This document shows positions 5,670-57,721 of a stretch of DNA of 64,000 nucleotides, in pieces; position 1 is the stretch's first letter, and every line of letters starts with the position of its first letter. Made by a program: the position numbers and the translations under genes. The notes under the pieces were generated by a model. The model searched no databases and was not told the origin of the DNA. It saw only the letters and a list, made by a program, of their open reading frames with translations. The DNA is taken from positions 62,001 to 126,000 of the forward strand of contig NZ_CBXV010000004.1 in assembly GCF_000820845.2 (NCBI RefSeq). The letters run 5' to 3'. This stretch comes from Pyrinomonas methylaliphatogenes. GTDB lineage: Bacteria; Acidobacteriota; Blastocatellia; Pyrinomonadales; Pyrinomonadaceae.

Positions 5670-5709
5670 CGCCCCGCTATGATAATGGCACAGAAGGGAA
5701 GCGCTAGTC

Positions 5710-5794
5710 CACCCCAGATGGCGCGTCAACTCGCTTCTTCTGGTGGAGCGAATTCGATCTGGGTGCGTGATAGCTCACCCCAGATGGCGCGTCA
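5710..5794. repeat. Pair of 19 bp direct repeats, 66 bp apart
   Basis: The 19 bp string CACCCCAGATGGCGCGTCA occurs at 5710-5728 and exactly again at 5776-5794. Weaker similarity extends about 7 bp to the left of each copy. The second copy contains the stop codon of the TPR gene (5792-5794, minus strand). The pair fills the gap between that gene and the small membrane protein. Its geometry matches four other repeat pairs in this window, each with a different sequence. Confidence 0.85.
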
Positions 5795-49024: not shown

Positions 49025-49358
49025 AACGGGCGGCTCCAGCTCTGCGATTTTGTCCCCATGGTAAGTCGCAGGGCACGACGGGGTCAATCTCCTTCGGACT
49101 GAACTTATGATGCGCGAAACGACATCGAAGGTGGTCTTCGACGCTCTGGGTTCGCAATCATTAACCTCTTTTCATACTTGCTGGCTGCGCGTCAACGCGC
49201 GCCGCTTGACCAGGACGCTCTGGGTTCGCAATCATTAACCTCTTTTCATGATCGCCCGATCTTGAAGCCGCGACTCGCATGATTTGACCGGTCTCAATCC
49301 AGCACCGCGCACACACCACGCCAAAAGATCCATCTCGGCTCGCATGATCTGACCGATT
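49025..49358. other. 334 bp intergenic region occupied by repeat pairs
   Basis: Between the VWA gene start and the end of the lectin-like gene. The first 115 bp would hold the VWA promoter. The rest is two pairs of direct repeats (49140-49249 and 49271-49362). No ORF with coding features is seen. Confidence 0.8.
49140..49249. repeat. Pair of exact 36 bp direct repeats with a 38 bp spacer
   Basis: Copies at 49140-49175 and 49214-49249 are identical over 36 bp; they begin GACGCTCTGGGTTCGC and end CCTCTTTTCAT. The spacer is 49176-49213 (38 bp). This is CRISPR-like geometry, but there are only two copies and no cas gene. The flanks differ immediately outside both copies. Confidence 0.92.
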
Positions 49359-49362
49359 TCAA
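49271..49362. repeat. Pair of diverged 27 bp direct repeats, 65 bp apart
   Basis: CGACTCGCATGATTTGACCG at 49271 (27 bp in all) recurs at 49336-49362 with four changes. The second copy contains the TGA stop of the lectin-like gene (49359-49361, minus strand), as in the pair at 5710-5794. The sequence is unrelated to the adjacent 36 bp pair. Confidence 0.75.
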
Positions 49363-54337: not shown

Positions 54338-54793
54338 GGAAACTCACCTTGATCTACGAGAGTCCAACCGCTGCGATTATCACACGGAAAAGGGCAGCGG
54401 ACGTTTGAGGGGGCGCTGCCGCTTGGAGAAAAGTTACGTTACTTGAACGAAGAAGTCAACAGCCATTAATTGCGCAGTTTACGCGCCCGTTGGGCTTTAC
54501 AAGCGGTGAACGCGCGCTAAATGCGCCGCGTGCTCCTAAGCCCTCTTGCCGCGAGAGGTTGAGCGTTTCGCGGCCTACTGCGCGCGCTAAATGCGCCGCG
54601 TGCTCCTAAGCCCTCTGATTTAAGAGCGTTTTCGCTCCCGAAGGGATCTTCTCCAGTCGGCGTGCAAATCGTTCATCCATTCCATTAAAATCGATCGGAG
54701 TAGATTAGGCGGAATGAGGATCGTGGGCGCAATTGCCGACTCGTTTATGATAAAAGAAACGAGATTTCGAATCGGGCATCCCGCGACAAGGTT
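54338..54793. other. 456 bp divergent intergenic region
   Basis: Holds the upstream regions of the histidine kinase and the VOC gene, a hairpin at 54393-54420 (GGCAGCG with CGCTGCC) and the 36 bp repeat pair at 54511-54616. An AT-rich stretch with GATAAAAG-like sequence near 54750 may be a promoter for the VOC gene. No coding ORF is seen. Confidence 0.7.
54511..54616. repeat. Pair of exact 36 bp direct repeats with a 34 bp spacer
   Basis: Copies at 54511-54546 and 54581-54616 are identical; they begin CGCGCGCTAAATGCG and end CTCCTAAGCCCTCT. The spacer is 54547-54580. Flanks differ at once on both sides. This is the same size class and geometry as the pair at 49140 but an unrelated sequence. 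Confidence 0.92.
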
Positions 54794-57625: not shown

Positions 57626-57721
57626 GTTCGGAGGGAATTCGACCCAATCTGCAGCAGACATCCGAGATTCGAGTCGGTCCCTCGCGATGAGGTTCGAAGA
57701 GAATTCGACCCAATCCGCAGC
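57626..57721. repeat. Pair of near-identical 30 bp direct repeats, 66 bp apart
   Basis: Copies at 57626-57655 and 57692-57721 share 27 of 30 positions (core AATTCGACCCAATC). Weaker similarity continues beyond each core (AGTCGGT recurs about 69 bp later), so this looks like a diverging 66 bp tandem duplication. It lies between the convergent beta-lactamase-like and EEP genes. Confidence 0.8.

Follow-up and report, generated by a model that had tools for sequence, protein, structure and literature searches.

The pair of 36-bp direct repeats at 54511-54616 of the window, the whole 64-kb stretch of Pyrinomonas methylaliphatogenes K22 DNA that was analysed, is very probably the product of off-target CRISPR spacer integration, an event of the kind called neo-CRISPR. 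This assignment follows from the geometry of the pair and from the class of similar pairs to which it appears to belong, and the pair itself is most likely a neutral scar. In the proposed mechanism, a resident Cas1-Cas2 integrase, by size presumably that encoded on contig 5 by the Cas4/Cas1 module of type I-G, would take up a prespacer of ~34 bp and attack both ends of a staggered 36-bp target lying between a kinase gene and a VOC gene, outside any array; gap filling of the single strands would then duplicate the target on either side, giving the order target-insert-target.

Structure and setting of the pair

The pair consists of the following parts:
54511..54546, no strand: first copy of the 36-bp duplicated target, 36/36 identical to the second copy, sequence CGCGCGCTAAATGCGCCGCGTGCTCCTAAGCCCTCT
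54547..54580, no strand: insert ('spacer') of 34 bp, sequence TGCCGCGAGAGGTTGAGCGTTTCGCGGCCTACTG
54581..54616, no strand: second copy of the 36-bp duplicated target, 36/36 identical to the first copy

The copies are 34 bp apart, with a period of 70 from start to start, and they are flanked by the start of a hybrid histidine kinase (54337, minus strand) and the start of a VOC-type ORF (54794, plus strand), which are arranged divergently. The sequence-only reading had described an exact 36-bp pair at 54511/54581 with a 34-bp spacer between a kinase and a VOC gene, and this description was confirmed in full. The 36-mer has no further occurrence in the whole 3.79-Mb genome, so the pair has two copies only, compared with the three or more shared repeats of a canonical CRISPR array, and it does not qualify as one. 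No donor of the 34-bp insert was found in the genome itself, and the insert has no exact match in viral contigs (IMG/VR) and no full-length match in phages or plasmids.

Direct repeats often arise by tandem duplication, and a simple duplication of ~70 bp followed by partial loss or decay could be proposed here. However, the layout is A-B-A, without B after the second A; the two 36-mers still agree in every base, yet no trace of the 34-bp segment follows the second of them, and such duplication would leave unexplained the two fixed sizes and the distant donors of the class described below. This origin is very unlikely. A paired protein-binding site in a divergent kinase/VOC regulatory region, which had also been suggested from the sequence, would suit a position between two divergent ORFs. 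It is extremely unlikely, since the 36-mer is unique in the genome, the 67 pairs have no sequence in common, the sizes follow the CRISPR arrays and not an operator, the 70-bp spacing belongs to a genome-wide size class and is not peculiar to this locus, and the sister species G001, of the same genus, has no pair at the intervals orthologous to two other pairs of the window.

The window contains five pairs of the same period class, namely the pair at 54511, the pair at 49140 and three decayed ones. The four others are:
5710..5794, no strand: probable decayed pair with an exact core of 19 nt (22/24 over 5705-5794), period 66
49140..49249, no strand: 36-class pair, two exact copies of 36 bp starting at 49140 and 49214 around a spacer of 38 bp, period 74
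49274..49362, no strand: probable decayed pair, 21/24, period 65, under the counting threshold
57626..57721, no strand: 30-class pair, 30-nt copies 27/30 identical, 36-bp spacer, period 66

The 49140 pair, earlier singled out as a comparator of the same size, is thus exact as well, with 36 bp and a period of 74. A comparison of the 54511 locus in related genomes had been proposed along with the first description. The locus itself has no match in G001, and the neighbouring kinase, used as a query against the genome contigs, returned distant kinases only and no close relative; the comparison could be made for two other pairs of the window, neither of which has a counterpart pair in G001. The interval orthologous to the 49140 pair contains no pair, nor does that orthologous to the 57626 pair, which measures 280 bp in K22 and 218 bp in G001. 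At the window and L040 pairs, the intergenic DNA of G001 is too diverged for base-exact empty-site joins. For the in-gene pair L040:16693, the counterpart region in G001 is a variable linker and uninformative.

A genome-wide class of pairs and the resident CRISPR arrays

The K22 assembly comprises 16 scaffolds and 3,788,560 bp, the same figures as in the published genome report (PMC4644332), and the window occupies positions 62001-126000 of its contig 4. In a sample of 840 kb, or 22% of this genome, 67 isolated pairs with a period of 63-76 were counted, equal to 80/Mb, with CRISPR arrays and clustered tandem repeats excluded; by extrapolation from the 840 kb, the whole genome carries about 300 such pairs. 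With a stricter score, 58 pairs were found at periods 64-76 compared with 16 across the 368 remaining periods from 20 to 400, which per period is an excess of 103-fold. Three runs of order-1 Markov sequence sized to the 835-kb sample yielded no pair with a score of at least 18 at periods 60-80, which places the 54511 pair far beyond chance. The sequences of the 67 pairs are mutually unrelated, and the pairs fall into two classes, one of ~30 nt at period 65-68 and the other of ~36-38 nt at period 70-75; decayed pairs scatter somewhat around these values. The sequence-only reading had argued for a general process that makes pairs and against a single repeat family, and the unrelated sequences and two fixed geometries bear this out; the direct-repeat survey that it had proposed genome-wide was carried out on the 840-kb sample, where it gave the excess at period 63-76 and, in addition, the two size classes.

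The copies are identical in 17 of 65 pairs and less than 90% identical in 11 of 65, and this spread suggests that the process has been running over a long time. Meanwhile, 43 of the 68 listed pairs lie outside any reading frame of at least 120 codons, compared with 25 of 300 random stretches, an intergenic bias that is expected if insertions within genes are removed. Several single loci were also recorded during the census. At contig 8, 406931-407086 (L027:6931-7086), three copies of a 30-nt repeat enclose two different spacers of 36 and 30 nt in what is apparently a new array; its first spacer has a second copy, 34/35 identical, at C8:635518 (minus strand). At L044:6228-6323 (contig 2), a 30-class pair lies across the start-codon region of an ORF that is TsaE-like as judged from its sequence alone, and the insertion is likely to have duplicated the probable translation start. 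A tandem-repeat cluster at L022:4550-5064 (contig 4), with periods of 75, 117, 150 and 192 bp, is probably a coding repeat and was left out of the pair counts.

The K22 genome has two cas1 loci, each beside a CRISPR array, and these arrays can be used as size rulers. Array A, with 36-bp repeats, 35-39-bp spacers and a period of 71-75, follows a type I-G-like Cas4/Cas1 fusion gene on contig 5, upstream of which lie csm-like genes. Contig 9 carries a type I-B operon that runs into array B, which has 30-bp repeats and 35-38-bp spacers. The repeat of array B is also present at the opening of contig 5, and near the start of this contig decayed copies of it with 1-3 mismatches are found at 2138-2741 on the minus strand, in the opposite orientation. 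The ~36-38 class matches array A in repeat length and period (70-75 in the class, 71-75 in the array), and the ~30 class matches array B in both respects. This equality of two pair geometries with two resident arrays argues for off-target integration, and so does the presence beside these arrays of two cas1 genes whose predicted products, Cas4/Cas1 and Cas1b, have E, H and D intact at the invariant positions, with cas2 adjoining each. For the 54511 pair, the 36-bp target has the length of the array A repeat. The 34-bp insert is 1 base under the shortest array A spacer, and it was counted as having a resident spacer length because the duplication may by chance extend one base further, which would explain the shortfall.

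The pair might alternatively be what is left of an array, or a minimal array, of a further unseen CRISPR system with the 36-mer as its repeat, which would agree with the repeat-spacer-repeat geometry and with the annotation of 15 CRISPR loci in K22 (PMC4644332). In that case, however, each pair would require its own repeat and its own system, while the pairs are unrelated to one another and only two cas1 loci are present, which makes this reading highly improbable.

Origin of the inserts and ends of the targets

When 37 inserts were searched against the whole genome, 11 had a further copy in the chromosome with an E value of 0.03 or better; the strong matches are ungapped, extend over the whole insert and end at its edges, and the weaker ones are partial. 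In the same search, none of the 17 spacers from the two arrays has a copy outside the arrays (P about 0.009 for 11/37 against 0/17), and no full-length match was present among the matches listed when spacers were compared with the 840-kb sample. The inserts of the class are probably captured DNA, about a third of them being copied from distant chromosomal sites, and the difference between inserts and array spacers argues for off-target integration. Self-derived spacers would be harmful in a real array and are presumably tolerated at the pairs, which are likely to be silent; given this tolerance, the pairs may reflect the range of captured DNA as it was before selection.

TTC/GAA adjoins 3 of the 11 donors and is the motif used as PAM for type I-G Cas4/1 (PMC10274657), a coincidence that is suggestive only as a sign of a PAM. 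The target ends of the 30-class have the form G|G.T, with an information of 4.73 compared with 3.04 ± 0.33 at random sites, and resemble the ends of the 30-bp repeat, which start with G. Both the donor motif and the end motif may speak for off-target integration. The target ends of the 36-class have no significant motif. As regards a preference for stem-loops, folding of the targets is not stronger than that of their flanks and only slightly stronger than that of shuffles. Counted against off-target integration at 54511 are its insert without a donor, its site without a match in G001, its short 34-bp spacer and the non-significant motif of the 36-class.

Repair of a staggered double-strand break, in which end-joining fill-in and templated filler would duplicate the overhang without any CRISPR enzyme, would likewise yield A-B-A with inserts taken from elsewhere, as seen in part of the class. 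However, such repair predicts neither two sharp classes of length and period equal to those of the resident arrays, nor a motif at the target ends as in the 30-class, nor the near absence of pairs in the sampled relatives, and it is considered unlikely.

Relatives and known systems

In the sister species G001, 94 kb contain about eight pairs of this kind, a density similar to that of K22. By comparison, six other genomes of the family, ~1.16 Mb in all, contain 3 pairs in total, with none in two cas1-negative relatives and 0-2 in each of four cas1-positive relatives, and loci from 80 unrelated genomes contain 3 pairs in 1.17 Mb. Within this sample, the property is therefore concentrated in Pyrinomonas, a distribution that favours off-target integration, and the few or absent pairs in the four cas1-positive relatives indicate that the presence of cas1 alone is not predictive, a point that counts against it. 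The similar density in G001, set against that of the other cas1-bearing relatives, raises the question of which factor confining Cas1-Cas2 is missing or altered in Pyrinomonas.

The distance from the Cas4/Cas1 stop to the cas2 motif is 411 nt in K22, whereas it is 22 nt in two relatives whose protein ends match; for the cas1-cas2 gap of the type I-B operon, relatives have 98, 140 and 106 nt and K22 has 301 nt. The extra DNA in both K22 gaps contains pairs (L009 / L012:14377-14800; L014:14986-15270), and these enlarged gaps, with shorter ones in relatives, also argue for off-target integration; the cas1-cas2 region is possibly a hot spot for pairs. In G001 (L301), a pair is present at the end of cas2. 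On contig 586 of the same species (L301), sequence resembling another enzyme, which we take to be gamma-glutamyltransferase-like, stands in place of the N-terminal half of the Cas1b frame, so that this is either a chimeric contig or a broken gene.

Neo-CRISPR loci formed by off-target integration were reportedly described by Nivala, Shipman and Church in 2018 (Nat Microbiol 3:310), who are said to have named a few natural candidates and to have seen off-target spacer integration mainly under overexpression. The K22 pairs are alike in that a repeat-sized target is doubled around a spacer-sized insert outside an array. They differ in being natural, in their estimated number of ~300 events, in having two size classes from two systems, in inserts of which ~1/3 can be traced to the host chromosome, and in their occurrence in two species of one genus. 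The non-canonical Cas1-Cas2 integration of Nivala et al. 2018 is cited in passages of PMC9456107, PMC11788318 and PMC11687729, and off-target spacer integration is described in a passage of PMC11788318 as known mainly from overexpression experiments. The literature searched contained no report of similar event numbers in a natural genome, which is not proof of priority.

If the explanation by off-target integration is true, target choice, protospacer choice, any self/non-self bias that precedes selection and the way in which new arrays are born could be read from the sequence of a wild genome, and CRISPR adaptation would be a mutational force on its own host. A broader proposal, which we put forward only tentatively and consider rather doubtful, is that promiscuous CRISPR integration in Pyrinomonas would be a standing genome-scale mutagen, placing insertions of 66-75 bp into promoters, a start codon and cas operons; some pairs would grow into arrays, of which the locus on contig 8 with three repeats and two spacers is an example, so that CRISPR loci would arise de novo, and the chromosome would record captures before selection, including self spacers that arrays cannot keep.

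The canonical arrays of K22 (type I-B with 30-bp and type I-G-like with 36-bp repeats) share the lengths of repeat and of spacer with the pairs, but each pair has its own unrelated 'repeat' and normally one spacer, and the array spacers tested are without a match in the host chromosome. Similarly, casposons and other target-duplicating transposons double their target by staggered integration; unlike these, the pairs are without transposon ends or cargo and their inserts are spacer-sized only, and, in contrast to casposons, both K22 cas1 genes adjoin CRISPR arrays.
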